Shown here one piece after another: positions 1,955-20,396 of a DNA stretch of 43,022 bases (position 1 is the stretch's first letter; the number at the start of each line of letters is the position of its first letter). The translations under genes and the position numbers were made by a program. The notes beneath the pieces are model-generated. The model was given only the letters and a program-made list of their open reading frames with translations. It did no database searches and had not been told where the DNA came from. The DNA is from a virus: the IMG/VR virus record IMGVR_UViG_3300023179_009103, positions 1 through 43,022 of that record. One strand, given 5' to 3'.

Positions 1955-3283
1955 ATGGCTAAGTTAGATCTTGATTACTTTGAGACTATTATTGCTTATA
2001 AAGCATTAACCGACGAGACTTATTTAGCTTCTATTGTAGACTATGTTAAGCCTATTTATTTTAAGAATAAAGACATTAAATCTGTATTCTCTATTATTGC
2101 TGATTTTTATGAAAAGAGAAACACAAAGCCTTCTATTACTGAAATTAAGTCTTATCTTACAACCGATGAACTAAAAACATCTCTTAAAAATGTTGTTACT
2201 CTTTTTAATAATATAGATAAAAATCTTAATAACGATGAATTGTCTGTAAACACAGAAATATTTTTAAAAGAAAAAGCTGTTTATCACACAATGATGGATG
2301 TGGTAGATGATATTACTAAAAACAGTGTTGATACATCAAAAATACTTTCTAAGTTTGAAAAAGCTTGTAGTCTTTCGCTAACGACAGAAGTGGGATTAGA
2401 TCTTTTTACAGATATAGATAAAGTTATTCAAGATTTAAACTCAAACGAAAAGTTTATACCTTCAAAATGGAAATGGATGGATGATAGAATCGGTGGCGGT
2501 TTTCTTGAAGAAGGTAGAGCATTGTATTTGTTTGCAGGAGAAACAAACATTGGAAAGAGTATTTTTCTAGGTAATATAGCAATTAACATTGCTAATCAAG
2601 GTAAAACTGTATTATTGGTTTCACTTGAAATGCCTGAACTTATTTACGCAAAAAGACTTTGTTCTAGTGTTTCTAAGATTCCTCTTAGTCAGCTTAAGGT
2701 AGAATCAGAGACATTAAAGAATCAAATTAACGAGTATTGTGTGGAGAACCCTAATTCAAAAATTATTATTAAAGAATTTCCACCAGCTTCTATTACATGT
2801 AATCATTTAAAAGCATTTATCAAAAAACTAATTCAAAAAGGAATTAAAATTGATGCAATTGTATTAGATTATGTTAATCTTTTACACACTACTATAGGTG
2901 ATACGAGCTACGAGCGAGTAAAAGTCTGTACTGAGCAACTTAGAGCATTATCCTATACCTTTAAGTGTCCGATTATATCTGCCACCCAGCTTAATAGAGA
3001 TGGATATGAAACAACAGATCCTGGATTAAAGACAATATCTGAAAGTATAGGACTAGCTATGACAGGTGACGTAATTCTTAGTATTTGGCAGGACGATACA
3101 GATAGAGAGCTTGGTGTAATAAAGATGGGCTTTATGAAGAATAGGCTTGGGCCAAATTTTGGACATTGCGCTATGCGAATAGACTATTCTACATTAACTA
3201 TTACAGAGGACGAGCATCTTAATGACACGGAGGCTAGTACATCTTCTATTAATACTCTATCTAAACTATCAATAGACAATTGA
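1955..3283 (+). CDS. 41: Replicative DNA helicase, T4 gp41 / DnaB-like
   Basis: 442 residues. The N-terminal 150 residues are a helical DnaB-like domain. The RecA-type core has Walker A GETNIGKS near residues 194-201, a SLEMPE segment (helicase motif 1a-like), Walker B-like IDAIVLDYVNLL near 303-314, and ATQLNR near residue 345, all typical of hexameric DnaB-family helicases. It unwinds DNA 5'-3' at the fork, works with primase gp61 (encoded at 8.6 kb) and is loaded by gp59 (3.8 kb). Preceded by a sigma70-like promoter placing +1 at the ATG. No Shine-Dalgarno sequence is visible. Confidence 0.9.
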   Translation: MAKLDLDYFETIIAYKALTDETYLASIVDYVKPIYFKNKDIKSVFSIIADFYEKRNTKPSITEIKSYLTTDELKTSLKNVVTLFNNIDKNLNNDELSVNTEIFLKEKAVYHTMMDVVDDITKNSVDTSKILSKFEKACSLSLTTEVGLDLFTDIDKVIQDLNSNEKFIPSKWKWMDDRIGGGFLEEGRALYLFAGETNIGKSIFLGNIAINIANQGKTVLLVSLEMPELIYAKRLCSSVSKIPLSQLKVESETLKNQINEYCVENPNSKIIIKEFPPASITCNHLKAFIKKLIQKGIKIDAIVLDYVNLLHTTIGDTSYERVKVCTEQLRALSYTFKCPIISATQLNRDGYETTDPGLKTISESIGLAMTGDVILSIWQDDTDRELGVIKMGFMKNRLGPNFGHCAMRIDYSTLTITEDEHLNDTEASTSSINTLSKLSIDN

Positions 3284-3289
3284 TTTACA

Positions 3290-3312
3290 ACAACTAAATA
3301 ATAATTAGTTGT
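3290..3312. repeat. Perfect inverted repeat between helicase gene and next reading frame
   Basis: ACAACTAA (3290-3297) and TTAGTTGT (3305-3312) can pair in an 8-bp stem with a 7-nt AT loop. It directly follows the helicase stop and covers the candidate TTG starts at 3309 and 3312. No T-tract follows, so it is more likely an RNA control or processing element than a terminator. Confidence 0.4.
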
Positions 3313-3602
3313 TGAGAGTGAAAGGGTACGATCCAGCAGAACAAATTAATGAATATGAACAAACTCATTTGTTCCTTTCCTTTTGTTCTTTAATTACTTT
3401 ACTAAATACTAAAAAATTAAATTTAGCTAATGTGTTTATTTTGTTACTCAAAAATAAAAATGTGAGAGAATTATTTCTAAAGTATTGTGAATTAAAAAAT
3501 GATTTTAGCGCAATTAAATTTTTCTTGCAATTTGACTCAGGATTGTATAAAAGTAAGTACGTTATGAAATTTCTCAACACTCACAAAAAGAATCTGCTAT
3601 GA
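3309..3602 (+). CDS. Hypothetical protein, up to 97 aa
   Basis: Small basic, Leu/Lys-rich, probably all-helical protein between helicase and bS21. The start is uncertain: TTG at 3309 or 3312 lies in the hairpin, and GTG at 3318 (MKGYDPAEQ) is an attractive alternative clear of it. The 3' end overlaps the bS21 start (ATGA), so it is part of the replication operon. No motif or family was recognised. It sits between gp41 and gp59, so a replication or translation accessory role is possible but is only an inference from position. Confidence 0.6.
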   Translation: MLRVKGYDPAEQINEYEQTHLFLSFCSLITLLNTKKLNLANVFILLLKNKNVRELFLKYCELKNDFSAIKFFLQFDSGLYKSKYVMKFLNTHKKNLL

Positions 3603-3805
3603 TGGTTAATGCTAAAATAAAACTCGATCCAAAAAAATGTATGGATAAAGCCTATTTTGAAAAGGCTTTAAGTAGATTTAATCGTGAATTTTTAAATTCC
3701 GGGGTACTCGATGAGCTAAGGTTGAAGAGACGTTTTTATAAGCCAAGCGCTTTAAGAAAGATAAAAAAGCAGTTAGTTAGAAATAAGTGGAAACACTTAA
3801 TGTGA
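3599..3805 (+). CDS. rpsU: Ribosomal protein bS21 homologue
   Basis: 68 residues matching bacterial small-subunit protein bS21 (about 70 aa). The diagnostic core is at residues 19-50: FEKALSRFNREFLNSGVL, then Asp-Glu-Leu-Arg and RRFYKPSALRK, which aligns with the E. coli segments FDVALRRFKR, AGVL, E-V-R and FYEKP with one gap. The tail is strongly basic (KKQLVRNKWK), as in the family, and fits rRNA binding. bS21 sits on the 30S platform near the 16S rRNA 3' end that carries the anti-Shine-Dalgarno sequence. Phage-borne bS21 is known from marine and huge phages; it is expected to replace or compete with host bS21. It overlaps both neighbours (ATGA upstream; its TGA lies in the gp59 start region), so it is co-translated with replication proteins. 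Confidence 0.85.
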   Translation: MMVNAKIKLDPKKCMDKAYFEKALSRFNREFLNSGVLDELRLKRRFYKPSALRKIKKQLVRNKWKHLM

Positions 3806-4443
3806 TATCTGAATTCGATAAATTTGTCTATAATACTTTTTTAAGAATAACGCGCAGTAGAAACAAACTACCCTTTAAGCTTAGAAAAAATTTTGAAAAA
3901 CTTGACGATAAAGTTTATGTTCAAATTAAAAAACTTTCTTCTTTTTTAAAACGGTTTCCACATATTAAAATAGATGATTTTTTTAATGCACCTTATGAGC
4001 TTTATCCTGATGAAAATTATTTTCCTATAGAATATTTTACTTCCCTTAAAGCAACTAAGGCATATACTCTTTTGCAAAAAAAGAAAATTAATTTAGATCC
4101 TGATAGTGAAGAACAATTAAAAAATATTAAAGAATCTCTAGTATTTATAAATAATTTTTGTAGAGAAAGAAATATTAATGTTTTTAACTATATAACACAT
4201 CAAACTAATAATGAATATTCTTTTTTACTTCATCTAAAAGAACATAAAGTTAACATATATACACTTTTAGGTTTTGTTAATTTTGAAAAGCAATTAAAAA
4301 CAAGAGATCCGGAAATAACTAAATTTATTATTGGTGAAGACATTTACAATAATATTCAAAATTTTAGAACTCGTCTTTTTAATTCTCAAAAGGCTGTAAA
4401 ATTAGTTGAACTTGGCCTTAAAAAAATTTCAAATAGTTCTTGA
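3787..4443 (+). CDS. 59: DNA helicase loader, T4 gp59-like
   Basis: Up to 218 residues, close to T4 gp59 (217 aa). The protein is mostly helical and basic with a conserved-looking middle, DDFFNAPYELYP then YFTSLKATKAYTL, similar to the marine T4-like gp59 family. gp59 recognises fork DNA and loads gp41 onto gp32-coated strands, which fits the order gp41 - bS21 - gp59 - gp32. GTG at 3787 is the longest start; GTG at 3802, which overlaps the bS21 stop as GTGA (protein MISEFDKFVYN), looks more natural. The stop codon lies inside the -35 box of the gp32 promoter. Confidence 0.65.
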   Translation: METLNVISEFDKFVYNTFLRITRSRNKLPFKLRKNFEKLDDKVYVQIKKLSSFLKRFPHIKIDDFFNAPYELYPDENYFPIEYFTSLKATKAYTLLQKKKINLDPDSEEQLKNIKESLVFINNFCRERNINVFNYITHQTNNEYSFLLHLKEHKVNIYTLLGFVNFEKQLKTRDPEITKFIIGEDIYNNIQNFRTRLFNSQKAVKLVELGLKKISNSS

Positions 4444-4467
4444 TTTACCGATTATAGCTAGTATTAT
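4440..4467 (+). promoter_or_regulatory. Sigma70-like promoter for gp32, predicted leaderless
   Basis: TTGATT (4440-4445), 16-nt spacer, TATTAT (4462-4467), 6 nt to ATG 4474. The gp59 stop codon (4441-4443) is embedded in the -35 box, the same arrangement as before gp41 and gp45. Confidence 0.65.
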
Positions 4468-4473
4468 ATCTTT

Positions 4474-5325
4474 ATGAGTACATTTACCGCGTCGATGTTT
4501 GAAAGTATTAAAGGGGCCCTAACCAAGGATAATGAATCTACGGCATCCAAGATTAAAGATTATCTTCGTTGCGAGGTTGGAAACACCTATACTGTTCGTC
4601 TTTTACCTAATGTCAAAGACCCGTCTAAGACATTTTTTCACTACTATTCTTATGGCTGGAATAGCCTTACAACCGGTCAGCTTATTACTGCCGTAAGCCC
4701 TACTACATGGAATCAACGCGATCCTATTGCTGAAGAGCGCTACAGGGTTTTGCGTAACGGTACTGAAAAGGAAAAAGAAAAGGCATTGGCTATTAAGCGC
4801 AGAGAGAATTGGCTTGTTAATGTTTATATTGTTAATGATCCTGTAAATCAGGAAAATAACGGCAAGACAAAGGTTCTTCGCTTTGGTCGTCAGTTGCATA
4901 AGATTATTATGGACGCTATTGAGGGCGAAGAAGCACAAGAGTTAGGCCCTCGCATTTTTGATCTTTCTCCTAAGGGATGTAATCTCCGTATTAAGGTAGA
5001 AAAGCAAGGCGATTACCCTACTTATGTTTCATCTAAGTTTTCTACTCCTAAGGAAATTGAGGGGTTAGATGAAGATTCGTACAAAAAGGTTTACAGCAGT
5101 GCTTTTGACCTTGAGTCTTACGTCACAGTTAAAAGCTATGATGAGCTCAAGGACTTGCTTGATACTCACTATCATGGAACAAAAGATGTTGAAGAAGAAG
5201 TTATTACTTCAAAGACTTCTGCTCCAGCACCGGTTGTTCAGGCTGCGGTTGTTAAGAAGCCTGCCACTAAGGCAGAAAAGGTTGAAGAGGACGATTCTAT
5301 TAACGAGCTTCTTAAAGATCTATAA
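4474..5325 (+). CDS. 32: Single-stranded DNA-binding protein, T4 gp32-like
   Basis: 283 residues (T4 gp32 is 301). The core shows the marine T4-like gp32 pattern: an OB-fold region with FFHYYSYGWNS, then SPTTWNQRDPIAEERYRVL, WLVNVYIVNDP, VLRFGRQLHKII and IFDLSPKG. An acidic low-complexity tail ends DDSINELLKDL, matching the gp32 C-terminal domain that recruits gp59, gp61 and polymerase. The His-Cys-Cys-Cys zinc subdomain of T4 gp32 is absent: there is no CPxC in the expected region. It coats ssDNA during replication, recombination and repair. Codon use is more GC-rich than in neighbours, as in a highly expressed gene. Confidence 0.88.
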   Translation: MSTFTASMFESIKGALTKDNESTASKIKDYLRCEVGNTYTVRLLPNVKDPSKTFFHYYSYGWNSLTTGQLITAVSPTTWNQRDPIAEERYRVLRNGTEKEKEKALAIKRRENWLVNVYIVNDPVNQENNGKTKVLRFGRQLHKIIMDAIEGEEAQELGPRIFDLSPKGCNLRIKVEKQGDYPTYVSSKFSTPKEIEGLDEDSYKKVYSSAFDLESYVTVKSYDELKDLLDTHYHGTKDVEEEVITSKTSAPAPVVQAAVVKKPATKAEKVEEDDSINELLKDL

Positions 5326-5732
5326 TGGACCCTCTTTTAAAAGATCTTACACCAGAAGAAATTAAGCTTACTACTATACAGTTTATAGGTCAAAACCTTT
5401 CTGGTGCTTTAAAAGAGTTGGATTCATCTATTATTTCAAAAAATCAAACCCTACAAGGTAAGACAATTGATCCTGTGCGAGTAGTTCAGGCTATTCCGCA
5501 AAGCAGAAACTCACAGCCTTACGCTTCTGTAGTTAATGCGGGTATGAATATTCAACCCCAACAAGCTCGTATTGTACATCAGCAACCTGCCCCAATACCG
5601 GTACAGCACGATCCTAATCAATTAGAGTTTGATTTTGATAAAAAAGCCAAGTATAGTGATATTTTAAACGCATTAACAGAAATTAAAACTATTTTAATGC
5701 GCATTGATAATAAGTTATCATCTAATGATTGA
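5325..5732 (+). CDS. Hypothetical protein with C-terminal coiled-coil
   Basis: 135 residues, starting inside the gp32 stop (TAATG). The N-terminal third is helical (MDPLLKDLTPEEIKL), the middle is Pro/Gln-rich and probably disordered (residues 55-95), and the end is an amphipathic helix (SDILNALTEIKTILMRIDNK) that could be a short coiled-coil. Coupled with gp32 and followed by gp45, so a replisome or late-transcription adaptor role is possible, but no family was recognised. The stop codon lies within the -35 box of the gp45 promoter. Confidence 0.75.
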   Translation: MDPLLKDLTPEEIKLTTIQFIGQNLSGALKELDSSIISKNQTLQGKTIDPVRVVQAIPQSRNSQPYASVVNAGMNIQPQQARIVHQQPAPIPVQHDPNQLEFDFDKKAKYSDILNALTEIKTILMRIDNKLSSND

Positions 5733-5756
5733 TATTCTTAGCTAAGGAGTTATTAT
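5729..5756 (+). promoter_or_regulatory. Sigma70-like promoter for gp45, predicted leaderless
   Basis: TTGATA (5729-5734), 16-nt spacer, TATTAT (5751-5756), 6 nt to ATG 5763. AAGGAG at 5744-5749 lies upstream of the -10 box, so it would serve only read-through transcripts, not those starting here. Confidence 0.65.
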
Positions 5757-5762
5757 TATACA

Positions 5763-6494
5763 ATGACCCTTAGCGTTAGTAATAAAGAAGAATTCTTAAA
5801 TAATTTTCTCAGCCCTCTTAGTAAAATTACCGATAGTGCAGTTATTCAGGTTAATACAGGTAAAATATCCTCACTTATCTCTACAAGTGATAATACGATT
5901 ATCGTAGACTCTAGCTATATAGATAAAAGTATCAATGCAATTAAGACATTAAATGTACCTGATCTAAAAAAACTATATAGAGTTATAAGCTGTATTGAAT
6001 TAGATTCTTTTGAACTAGATATATCTTCTAATTTTATTGGATATAGTTCTAAGAGCGTTAGGTTTAAATATCATTTGTATGATGATGGTATAATTACTAC
6101 CCCCAAGCTTAATGTAGAAAAGCTAAAAACTTTTACATTTGATGGTACATTTACATTACCCTATGCTTCAGTTGTAAATTTAGTAAAAGGAAGCTCTATT
6201 AGTACAGAGACAAACAAAGTTTATATATCCGTAAAAGATAGTATTGTGTTTGGTGAGCTAACAGATAAAACTAGAGCTAATATTGATTCTTATGGTATAC
6301 AAATTGCTGATAACTATTCTGGAACACAGTTTGCTCTTGCAGTGCCGTTGAATTTTGAAATATTTAGAATAATTTCTTCTATGAGATATAAAGAGCTTCA
6401 AGCTCAATTAATAACAAAAATGGGAGTATTGACGTTAGATCTCGAACTTAATAATGCTCGGTTTAAGTTTGTTGTATCAGCTTTAGCTAACTAA
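5763..6494 (+). CDS. 45: Sliding clamp, T4 gp45-like
   Basis: 243 residues (T4 gp45 is 228). Begins LSVSNKEEFLNNFLSPLSKITD, as in T4-like clamps, with two similar beta-rich halves and the repeated pattern of strands ending in K-V-Y-I-S / L-T-L-D-L-E. It forms a ring that tethers the DNA polymerase and, in T4-like phages, also activates late transcription with gp33 and gp55. The gene is away from its loader gp44 (32 kb). The preceding promoter predicts a leaderless message. Assignment is by overall pattern and position, since clamps have few invariant residues. Confidence 0.8.
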   Translation: MTLSVSNKEEFLNNFLSPLSKITDSAVIQVNTGKISSLISTSDNTIIVDSSYIDKSINAIKTLNVPDLKKLYRVISCIELDSFELDISSNFIGYSSKSVRFKYHLYDDGIITTPKLNVEKLKTFTFDGTFTLPYASVVNLVKGSSISTETNKVYISVKDSIVFGELTDKTRANIDSYGIQIADNYSGTQFALAVPLNFEIFRIISSMRYKELQAQLITKMGVLTLDLELNNARFKFVVSALAN

Positions 6495-16458: not shown

Positions 16459-17433
16459 ATGGCAGATATAACTATTGGTAATTTACCATCAGCCCCTAGC
16501 ACTACTAGTGTTGCTATAGTACCGGTTTCTATAGGAAATACTACATATAGTTTATCTGCAACTACATTTAGTTATAGTCTTAACAACGGACTACCCGGTG
16601 AATCAGGATATACTTTAAAAAATGTAATTTTAAAATCAGATTCTTTAGGTCGCTGTTATATAGGAAGTTTGGAATCTAATATAACTTCTAATACTACAAA
16701 TTATACCAAAGCTGCTGAATGTGATTTGTATAATATAAAAATTGCACAAGGTGTTCGCGACAACGGTTACAAAATAGGCTTAGCTGTTCAAGGGTTTATT
16801 ACTAATGGTGAATTTAAAGGTACCTTAGCTCAAAATTTTGGCATTTGGTGTCGACACGGGTTTGTACCTACATCAGCCGGTCAACCTACCGGCACAATAG
16901 AAAATTCTTATGGAATTTTTATTGAGTCTTTATCTGGAGCATCCGGAGCAAAAATAGAGCGCTGTTGGGGAATTTATCAACCAGATAATTACGGGGCAAA
17001 ATCAAAAAATTATTTAGAAGGTGATACCGGTATTGGTACTGAACCTTCTTATAAATTACACGTTACTCAAAGCGATCAAAATAAAATTGCAGCAAGAATT
17101 GCAGGTATGGAATTTGGTGAAAGAACTTTTTCTTCTATGCAAGCTAATACTTGGTATGATGTAAGTAGGGGTGATATACACGGTATGTTTGTTTATAAGC
17201 TTGTAATAAGCGGTGATATTAGTAGTGTTGCATACAGGTATCACGAGATGGGATTTAACAAATCTTATCCCTCTTTAGTCAATACTGTGTGGGGTAAAAA
17301 TACCGGGTTTCCTAGTGATCCCGGAGTCCAGTGGCAAATAGTGAGCGGTAAATATCAAGTAAGAATAACCAATAGCAGCTGGTCAGGAACTACTGGTCAG
17401 TTAAGTATTATGGGATCATTAGTAGGTATGTAA
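16459..17433 (+). CDS. Tail fibre-like virion protein
   Basis: 324 residues. N-terminus MADITIGNLPSAPSTTSVAI matches the start of the minus-strand C1q-like fibre (12691), a probable shared attachment module. The middle is beta-rich with NSYGIFIESLSG and CWGIYQPDNYGAKSKNYLEG, typical of phage fibre shafts, then GDTGIGTEPSYKLHVTQS, a motif that often marks the end of fibre shafts before a tip or chaperone domain. The final 110 residues form a beta-rich tip (WYDVSRGDIHGMFVYKL to MGSLVGM). Acts in receptor binding or as decoration. Placed between terminase and tail tube/sheath genes. Confidence 0.7.
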   Translation: MADITIGNLPSAPSTTSVAIVPVSIGNTTYSLSATTFSYSLNNGLPGESGYTLKNVILKSDSLGRCYIGSLESNITSNTTNYTKAAECDLYNIKIAQGVRDNGYKIGLAVQGFITNGEFKGTLAQNFGIWCRHGFVPTSAGQPTGTIENSYGIFIESLSGASGAKIERCWGIYQPDNYGAKSKNYLEGDTGIGTEPSYKLHVTQSDQNKIAARIAGMEFGERTFSSMQANTWYDVSRGDIHGMFVYKLVISGDISSVAYRYHEMGFNKSYPSLVNTVWGKNTGFPSDPGVQWQIVSGKYQVRITNSSWSGTTGQLSIMGSLVGM

Positions 17434-18102: not shown

Positions 18103-20396
18103 ATGGCGCGCACAATTCAAAGTCCCGGAGTACAGATTCAAGAGGTAGACTTATCTTTAGCTAATGCAGGAACACCAGCAACTACAGTATTTGTTCCTGG
18201 ATTTGCTGCCAAAGGTCCTTCTTCAGAACCCATTGCAATTTCATCGTTATCCGAATTCGAACAAGTTTTCGGCACACCAACAAATTCTGCAGAAAGATAT
18301 TTTTATCATTCTGTTAAATCTGTACTGAACTCACCATCCAACGTTTTAGTTTATAGGCTACCTTATGGTGCTGGAAGCGGTGTTGATACAAGCGATGAAT
18401 ATAGTGCTTTAGTATACCCCGTCAAAGGCTATACAGGCGGTGTAACTACCAATAATCTTGATTTTGAAAATGGTTCATATTTCTTTGGTACTCCAACACA
18501 TTTAAAACTTACTCAAGAAGAGTATCTTTCCATTCTTCGTGGTGATGGTTTTTTCTGGTCCCCTCAAACAGGTGGTGTAACAGAATTTAATACAGTAGCT
18601 TCTCTTAGTGGAGCCGGGTTAATCGTTTTAAATAAGTCCCAATCTACTATTAATACAAAATTTGAAGGTAATTACATCGGTATTATTGATAATACCAATC
18701 TTAATCCCGCTACACCTTTTAATGATGTAAATAACGTTTATACGGTTAATAGCGAAACAAAGGTAATAGCTGGTAATGCCAATTACGTACAAATACCTTC
18801 TGTTAGACTAAACTTTACTCTATCTGCAGATTCCGCCGGGCTTCAAGGCTCAGTATCTGAAGTACTAGAAAATATACCTTCTTTTGATATTTCTTCTGAT
18901 CAATTTGATGATACCATTACAATTGGTGTATTCAAACTTCGTCAATCTGTATTTTCACCTGATACAATCGCCCTCGATTACGTATTACAGGAAAGCCGTA
19001 CAGGCTCGATGGATTCAAACCGTCAGATAATAGTGAAGCTGGTGGCCCTCCCGTTAGCTTCTTTGTCGAGCAAATCAACGGTGAATCAATTAATGTTACC
19101 GTTGTAACTAACCCCTATATTTCTAATAAATCTGCCAGCACTTGGCTGGATTTAAACGGTAAGCCTAAGAAAAAGGTACGTTTTCTCAGTGTTGGTCTTG
19201 CTACTCCTTTAGAAGGTGAAACATCAACAGATTATACTACCCGTGTTGGTGCGCCTTCCGCAACTGTTGTTAGTTTAAACTCTGTATACGGTACAACAAA
19301 CGCACTTTACGCAGTAGGTGATTATGATAATCAAGATCTTTCTACAAAAGAAATAGGTGATATCCCCTCTAAACTAACACTAGCAACAGAAAAAGTTAAT
19401 AATGTTGATCTATATCCAATTAATATTACTGTTGAAGCTGGTTTAGGTACTGTTTACGTAAATTCATTCAATCCTTCTACAGACGGATTCTTCGACGATA
19501 CAGTGCCTTACGATACAATGCTAGATTCTCTTAAGGTACAAAACCCATCCACACTACCTACATCAGTAACTAGGTACAATGCTGCAGTTGCACCCTTCTT
19601 AAACTTAACAGAAAATCGTAAAGACCATCTCTTTATTGCAGATCCTATTACTAATATATTCGTACAGGGTTCAAATGTTAAGACATTAGATTCTAATGAA
19701 AATACATTCTCTAATGATATTTACTGGCCGCTAAAGAATCAATTCTCCGGAATTGACACTAGCTATGCATGTGCTTTTGCAAATTGTGTTAAAGTTTCTG
19801 ATGCAGCTTCAAATCAACAAGTTTGGGTTCCCTTCTCTGGATTTGCAGCCGCTGCAATGGCTAACACTGATAGTAATTATCAACCCTGGTATGCACCCGC
19901 AGGCTTCTCCCGCGGTGTTCTCACGGGTGTAACTGATATTGCTCTTTATCCAAAGCAGAAGCAACGCGATCAACTTTACAAGATTAATCTTAATCCTATA
20001 GCATTCTTCCCATCTGAAGGTTTTGTAATCTTTGGTCAAAAGACCCTTCAAAAGAAACCAAGCGCTTTTGATCGTATTAATGTACGTAGATTGTTTTTGA
20101 ATCTCGAAACTGCTACTCGTGATACAGTTAAATACTTTATCTTTGAGCCTAACACGCTGTTTACTAGAACTCAAATTATTAATAGCCTAACACCGCTATT
20201 TGATAATGCTAAGAATACGCAAGGTATCTATGATTATCTGTTAATTTGTGACGAAAGAAACAACACACCAGCAGTTATTGATGATAATAGTATAGTAATT
20301 GATGTATATATTAAGCCAGTTCGCGCTGCTGAATATATTCTCTGCAACTTCTATGCTACAAGAACTGGTACAAACTTCCAGGAAATAGTATCATAA
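18103..20396 (+). CDS. 18: Contractile tail sheath, T4 gp18-like, interrupted by a frameshift
   Basis: Begins MARTIQSPGVQIQEVDLSL and TTVFVPGFAAKGP, the hallmark of T4-like sheath proteins. The first frame runs to a stop at 19107; the second frame is open from about 18909 and continues with SDNSEAGGPPVSFFVEQ, LDLNGKPKKKVRFLSVGL, then the conserved C-terminal domain (FSGIDTSYACAFANCVKV, YQPWYAPAGFSRGVL, KQRDQLYKINLNPIAFFPSEG, TATRDTVKYFIFEPNT) to 20394-20396. The crossover is best near 19020-19030, where first-frame sense (ESRTGSMDSNRQ) gives way to second-frame sense. The joined product is about 764 residues, a normal length for this family. The change equals one missing base. No classical slippery heptamer is at the crossover, so a sequence error or true mutation is more likely than programmed frameshifting. 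Confidence 0.88.

Follow-up and report, generated by a model that had tools for sequence, protein, structure and literature searches.

A 2019 survey counted phage-borne genes for ribosomal protein bS21 in 1,310 genomes and contigs of viruses, both cultivated and uncultivated (PMC6375957). That some phage bS21 genes lie near genes for replication or DNA processing is also already published (PMC9723584). Chen et al. (2022) reported that 30 of 900 published phages with bS21 have a DNA helicase no more than ten genes away from it, noted that bS21 is sometimes found near replication genes, and called for the study of such cases (PMC9723584).

In the freshwater Bacteroidetes phages described there, the late-expressed bS21 gene lies on the strand opposite to those for TerL, portal, protease and MCP (PMC9723584). 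The pelagiphage HTVC008M, a T4-like myovirus, encodes a bS21 (AGE60443) in the neighbourhood CobS-bS21-hypothetical-Hsp20; the protein is incorporated into Escherichia coli ribosomes, which then have almost no activity in in vitro translation (PMC6375957). Phage T4 has no bS21; its block dsbA-33-59-32 has the order X-gp59-gp32, with overlapping genes.

This analysis concerns a bS21-family gene in an uncultured T4-like aquatic phage. The stretch of DNA analysed, here called the window, is a 43,022-base IMG/VR record, probably a fragment, that carries T4-like replication genes as identified by family search, together with an extended series of ORFs of terminase and tail type. Its bS21 resembles that of the Bacteroidetes phages in being a protein of a large freshwater phage with a divergent N-terminal and a conserved C-terminal part, for which replacement of the host bS21 is proposed (PMC9723584); it differs in that the gene is co-directional and overlapping with its neighbours in a replication-gene unit under an early-type promoter, and the opposite-strand arrangement is not seen. 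To the HTVC008M protein it is linked by a profile match between the two families, although that protein is too distant for tblastn; HTVC008M also uses Shine-Dalgarno (SD) sequences widely, at 46 of its 88 genes. The T4 block is matched in gene order and overlaps, and probably in a gp59-like fold, but in the window bS21 fills the junction before the gp59-like gene. What sets this locus apart from described ones is the fixed, overlapping slot in a replication unit, the early-type promoter, a phage-specific N-terminus shared across lineages, and a clean on/off pattern among relatives.

Two further features of these genomes may be recorded here. The presumed tail-sheath gene of the window (18103-20396) takes the form of two ORFs, of 334 and 297 aa, separated by a gap, possibly owing to a frameshift, an intron or an assembly error; in the relative G003 the tail sheath is one ORF of 763 aa (L054:5578-7869). 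Large relatives carry tRNA genes, including some with the Met-type anticodon CAT (L051:14018-14094, L058:17490-17564, L059:10751-10825); none was found in the 43,022-base window.

The bS21-family gene and its neighbours

Positions 3599-3805 of the plus strand encode a protein of 68 aa with a pI of 10.6 and the sequence MMVNAKIKLDPKKCMDKAYFEKALSRFNREFLNSGVLDELRLKRRFYKPSALRKIKKQLVRNKWKHLM. As the first-pass annotation had recognised, this is a protein with a bS21 core: it matches Pfam PF01165 (Ribosomal_S21) with 38.4 bits, where the cut-off is 27 (E 1e-9; 37.6 bits for the gene in a six-frame search) and PHROG 21469, 'ribosomal protein S21' (E 9e-6), and its credible matches in the PDB are solved bS21 chains only (5.5e-5 with the single sequence, 7e-7 with the family profile). 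The HMM search that had been proposed as a check gave a positive result at the Pfam level, whereas the 68-aa protein scores narrowly below the cut-off of the NCBIfam equivalog TIGR00030 (25.9 against 28.95 bits). The latter is due to the replacement of the N-terminus by a conserved phage-specific segment. In both models the first 9-10 profile positions find no match in the protein, and in most members of the phage-type family the Pfam match starts only at profile position 10. The Ribosomal_S21 core (3656-3778, plus strand) comprises residues about 20-60, which correspond to profile positions 10-50. Residues 1-19 form the phage-specific N-terminus, roughly VxLDxKKxxDKxYFDK, which is conserved across divergent phages.

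The small size, basic character, KPS motif and basic C-terminal helix are those of the Ribosomal_S21 superfamily. KPS is present in all 29 aligned phage-type members, and one further relative (L082) has TPS; following this core, a C-terminal KW[KR] is near-invariant. Since the equivalog model is missed and the N-terminus is replaced, the protein is assigned to the superfamily as a phage type that has diverged, and is not taken as a proven equivalog of bacterial bS21. Relatives are encoded by 41 viral contigs (IMG/VR loci), and dN/dS is roughly 0.01-0.08 for pairs with usable divergence; the ORF is thus not a chance one, and the codon comparisons indicate that it is under purifying selection. 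Each large relative that could be searched has one copy. A recent host origin, which had been raised as a possibility, is not borne out: a scan of a genome collection with the bS21 family detected no relative of the phage type in bacteria, and the N-terminus is phage-specific and common to divergent phages.

All neighbours discussed here lie on the plus strand. A DnaB/gp41-like replicative helicase (1955-3283; PHROG 19, E 6e-70; DnaB_C) is followed by a conserved protein, ORF97 (3309-3602, likely start GTG at 3318), which sits where T4 gene 33 would. Downstream of bS21 are ORF218 (3802-4443, about 213 aa), a probable T4 gp59-like, helicase-loader-like protein by its fold and its position before gp32, and a gp32-like single-stranded DNA-binding protein (4474-5325; PF08804, 2e-16; PHROG 224). 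The order helicase-ORF97-bS21-ORF218-gp32 recurs in 39 of 41 loci, within the reach of each contig. The bS21 start overlaps the ORF97 stop in ATGA (3599-3602), and its stop overlaps the start of the gp59-like gene in GTGA (3802-3805), where the homologues begin with M-I-[ST]-[ED]-F. The GTGA makes 3802 the probable start of ORF218, and the listed GTG at 3787 an unlikely one. The coupling to both neighbours that had been noted in the window is general: the ORF97/bS21 overlap measures exactly 4 nt in 31 of the 40 loci having both genes, the gp59-like gene of relatives begins on the bS21 stop codon or a few bases away, and overlap or abutment with the neighbours is found in nearly all of them.

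The first-pass annotation had placed the gene between helicase and helicase loader. Replication genes do adjoin it, but ORF97 intervenes on the helicase side, and the loader is a likely one on the basis of its fold. Neither ORF97 nor ORF218 belongs to a sequence family in Pfam or PHROG; ColabFold models of both are good (pLDDT 88-89). For the ORF218 model, the top PDB match is T4 gp59 (1c1k), with a probability of 0.99 over the full length and the same size, although with a weak E of 0.07, a TM of 0.37 and an rmsd of 13.9. Identification as gp59 by sequence was rejected, as hhalign detected no similarity to gp59 of T4 or of HTVC008M; on fold and position, ORF218 is likely yet not proven to be gp59-like. 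ORF97 was also considered as a counterpart of the T4 late co-activator gp33 and rejected, with no sequence or fold similarity to gp33 and no match to anything else. In several relatives (L032, L033, L034-L036, L038, L044), helicase and ORF97 are 355-931 bp apart, probably with an extra gene in the gap, while ORF97-bS21-ORF218-gp32 stays intact. These gaps, together with a promoter region of its own upstream, link bS21 to ORF97 and the gp59-like gene, not to the helicase.

Predicted early-type and late-type promoters

The ORF97-bS21-gp59-like unit is preceded by a putative early-type promoter (3280-3308, plus strand), composed of TTGATT (3280-3285), a 16-nt spacer and TAATTAG (3302-3308). Across 24 aligned regions this element, T[TG]GATTT-N15-TAATTAG, keeps exactly the same spacing and almost the same sequence, and it is retained by many relatives devoid of bS21. 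It appears to be sigma70-like, with the same geometry as the plus-strand promoters predicted for the helicase (1921-1948, TTGATT-N16-TATTAT), for gp32 (4440-4467) and for the presumed sliding clamp gene at 5763-6494 (5729-5756). In 76 sequences upstream of helicase, gp32 and presumed clamp genes of relatives, TTGATT lies some 34 nt upstream of the ATG, and TATTATA ends some 5 nt upstream of it. TTGAT-N-TATNAT has four matches on the plus strand of the window, precisely at the genes for helicase, gp32, clamp and dUTPase; on both strands together, the early pattern has five matches, where chance would give 1.8. TTGATT often includes the stop codon of the preceding gene, and this alone could account for some of its conservation. 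The dUTPase gene, however, has no preceding gene on that strand to supply a stop codon, and upstream of ORF97, GATTT persists also in those cases where it is no longer provided by the stop of the helicase gene.

For the structural genes, T4-type late promoters are predicted from sequence, with a TATAAATA-like box near −10 and a gp55-type sigma factor. Homologues of the gp55-like late sigma factor were present in all five relatives tested. In the window, TAAATA ends 5-6 nt before the start codon of 14 of 45 genes, against 0.9 expected; examples are the starts at 16459, 18103, 20422, 20996, 22751, 33565 and 39376. Two large relatives have 35 and 34 cases at this position, and the T4 segments used as control have none. 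Boxes 5-6 nt before the start are found at 15-31% of genes in the phage group (window; L051-L065, L232-L251) and TAAATA boxes at 9 of 88 genes in HTVC008M. In T4 late geometry, such boxes would place transcript starts at the ATG or close to it, so leaderless late mRNAs are predicted for these T4-like aquatic phages.

With an early-type promoter at ORF97 and late boxes at the structural genes, bS21 belongs to an early- or middle-type unit. Promoter class thus lends indirect support to early expression of the operon bS21. The earlier proposal that its location ties its expression to early replication proteins can be retained in this form, with ORF97 and the gp59-like gene as the linked partners in place of the helicase.

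Bacteroidetes promoters are of the TTTG/TAnnTTTG type, which the early promoters of the window do not resemble, while the SD poverty described below would fit a Bacteroidetes host. The window terminase is nearest to those of rhizobial T4-like phages, at about 39%, which is too distant to name a host, and a scan of the genome collection with the helicase gave only distant matches in unrelated MAGs or genomes.

A presence/absence cassette

A search with the ORF97 and ORF218 families, for loci sampled by similarity to the window, yielded 46 distinct loci with bS21 between the two genes and 46 without; in nearly all of the latter, ORF97 directly abuts ORF218. As the two neighbours meet directly in equally many relatives, the operon bS21 is, at the level of gene arrangement, a precise presence/absence cassette. 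On a tree of ORF97 plus ORF218 from the same sampling (90 rows), bS21 presence requires four changes, at least three of them forced by strong branches, compared with about 30 when labels are shuffled. The slot therefore appears to have been cleanly filled or emptied at least three to four times, with gain and loss not distinguishable by direction.

Among 14 records without an operon bS21, no bS21 was detected in 12, an absence that is not final because several are fragments; the other two (199 and 193 kb) have a canonical-like bS21 elsewhere. In these, G012 and G013 (L229 and L228), a 60-aa protein matches the full Pfam profile (positions 1-54; 50.7 and 60.8 bits) and is encoded outside the replication unit. 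They resemble the window phage as related T4-like phages with a bS21, and differ in its canonical-like form and, in G013, in a late box, TTAAATA, 6 nt before the ATG. Mutual exclusion of the operon and canonical types was considered and set aside, as the numbers are too small: none of the 23 operon-type records has a second bS21, and two of the 14 that lack the operon copy have a canonical one.

Possible roles of the phage-type protein

In Bacteroidia, bS21 together with bS18 and bS6 sequesters the 3' tail of 16S rRNA and controls access to the anti-SD sequence, and loss of bS21 changes mRNA choice (PMC9976891). Against this background, the reading we favour, with moderate confidence, is a divergent phage-type bS21 that converts ribosomes from early infection on. 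The sigma70-like early or middle promoter just before ORF97 would drive joint transcription of ORF97, bS21 and the gp59-like gene, and bS21 would be translated by coupling through the 4-nt overlaps. The protein would then, most likely, exchange with loosely bound host bS21 on the 30S platform, where its conserved KPS/basic C-terminal half may mediate binding, while the phage-specific N-terminus may change the handling of the 16S 3' tail and of mRNA at initiation. Initiation altered in this way would give phage messages an advantage already early in infection. What the analysis observes is family membership at the Pfam level, a conserved operon slot with overlaps, the promoter type, purifying selection and repeated gain or loss; when the protein is made, that it enters ribosomes and how it acts on initiation are our inference.

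An extension of this reading, which we think unlikely though attractive, is that a T4-like lineage put bS21 under early control so that the 30S subunit is converted from the start of infection, suiting leaderless, SD-free messages. SD sequences are near chance level in the phage group of the window. In bS21-carrying genomes they precede 74 of 507 genes (about 49 expected), and in three bS21-less genomes 25 of 270 (about 27 expected); the slight excess in the former is weak and confounded by ancestry. A specific association of bS21 with leaderless mRNAs was rejected, as bS21-less relatives share the late-box geometry, also without SD. With the same promoters and SD-poor, leaderless-looking genes in these relatives, bS21 is not needed for this type of mRNA and does not explain it; the idea that it serves leaderless, SD-poor phage messages is accordingly weakened.

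Late use is the rival that survives best, although it too is improbable: a ribosomal bS21 replacement would merely occupy a convenient operon slot and be useful late, as in the published Bacteroidetes phages, where expression is late (PMC9723584). Two relatives carry the same bS21 type outside the replication unit (L039:6001-6204, L040:3791-3994), after a conserved gene for about 120 aa and near gp31-like co-chaperonin and structural-looking genes, with its own TAAATA box 4-5 nt before the ATG. Thus a single bS21 type occurs in two groups, with control of the early type in the one and of the late type in the other. The divergent operon member L044 has TATAAATA 7 nt upstream of bS21, and the ORF97 promoter, being present in bS21-less relatives, is independent of bS21. 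Against late use, nearly all operon-type loci have no late box at bS21, and the slot has been kept through long divergence with a near-invariant gene overlap.

That a protein of bS21 fold has become a factor binding nucleic acids outside the ribosome, such as an accessory to replication acting with the gp59-like protein and gp32, is distinctly less probable. It would suit the position between ORF97 and the gp59-like gene, the missed TIGR00030 model with its replaced N-terminus, and the ability of bS21 to join non-ribosomal RNPs such as OLE (PMC12054373). However, the part conserved is the ribosome-anchoring C-terminal half, phage-type bS21 also occurs away from replication genes, and replication does not need bS21, since relatives retain the whole operon without it.

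T4-like phages use translational repressors such as RegA. By this precedent, by the tight coupling to both neighbours and by the feedback regulation of bS21 synthesis in Flavobacterium (PMC9976891), the protein might regulate translation of its own operon by acting on phage mRNA instead of the ribosome, but this is very improbable, as an unsystematic look noticed no conserved RNA element beyond the promoter and the separate late promoter in L039/L040 does not fit operon autoregulation.

Phage ribosomal proteins are common in water, and the main expression study associates bS21 with the late phase of infection. If, as in the favoured reading, the operon bS21 is used early in infection, a phage may retune host ribosomes well before particle building. 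Should early control of bS21 indeed have been adopted by a T4-like lineage, the relatives with the same type under late promoters would offer a natural experiment to show at what stage taking over the ribosome is worthwhile. A lineage with an early-type bS21, alongside relatives with none and relatives with late promoters, makes timing and benefit directly testable, and a phage-type bS21 with an N-terminus of its own is a tool for finding out how bS21 steers initiation.
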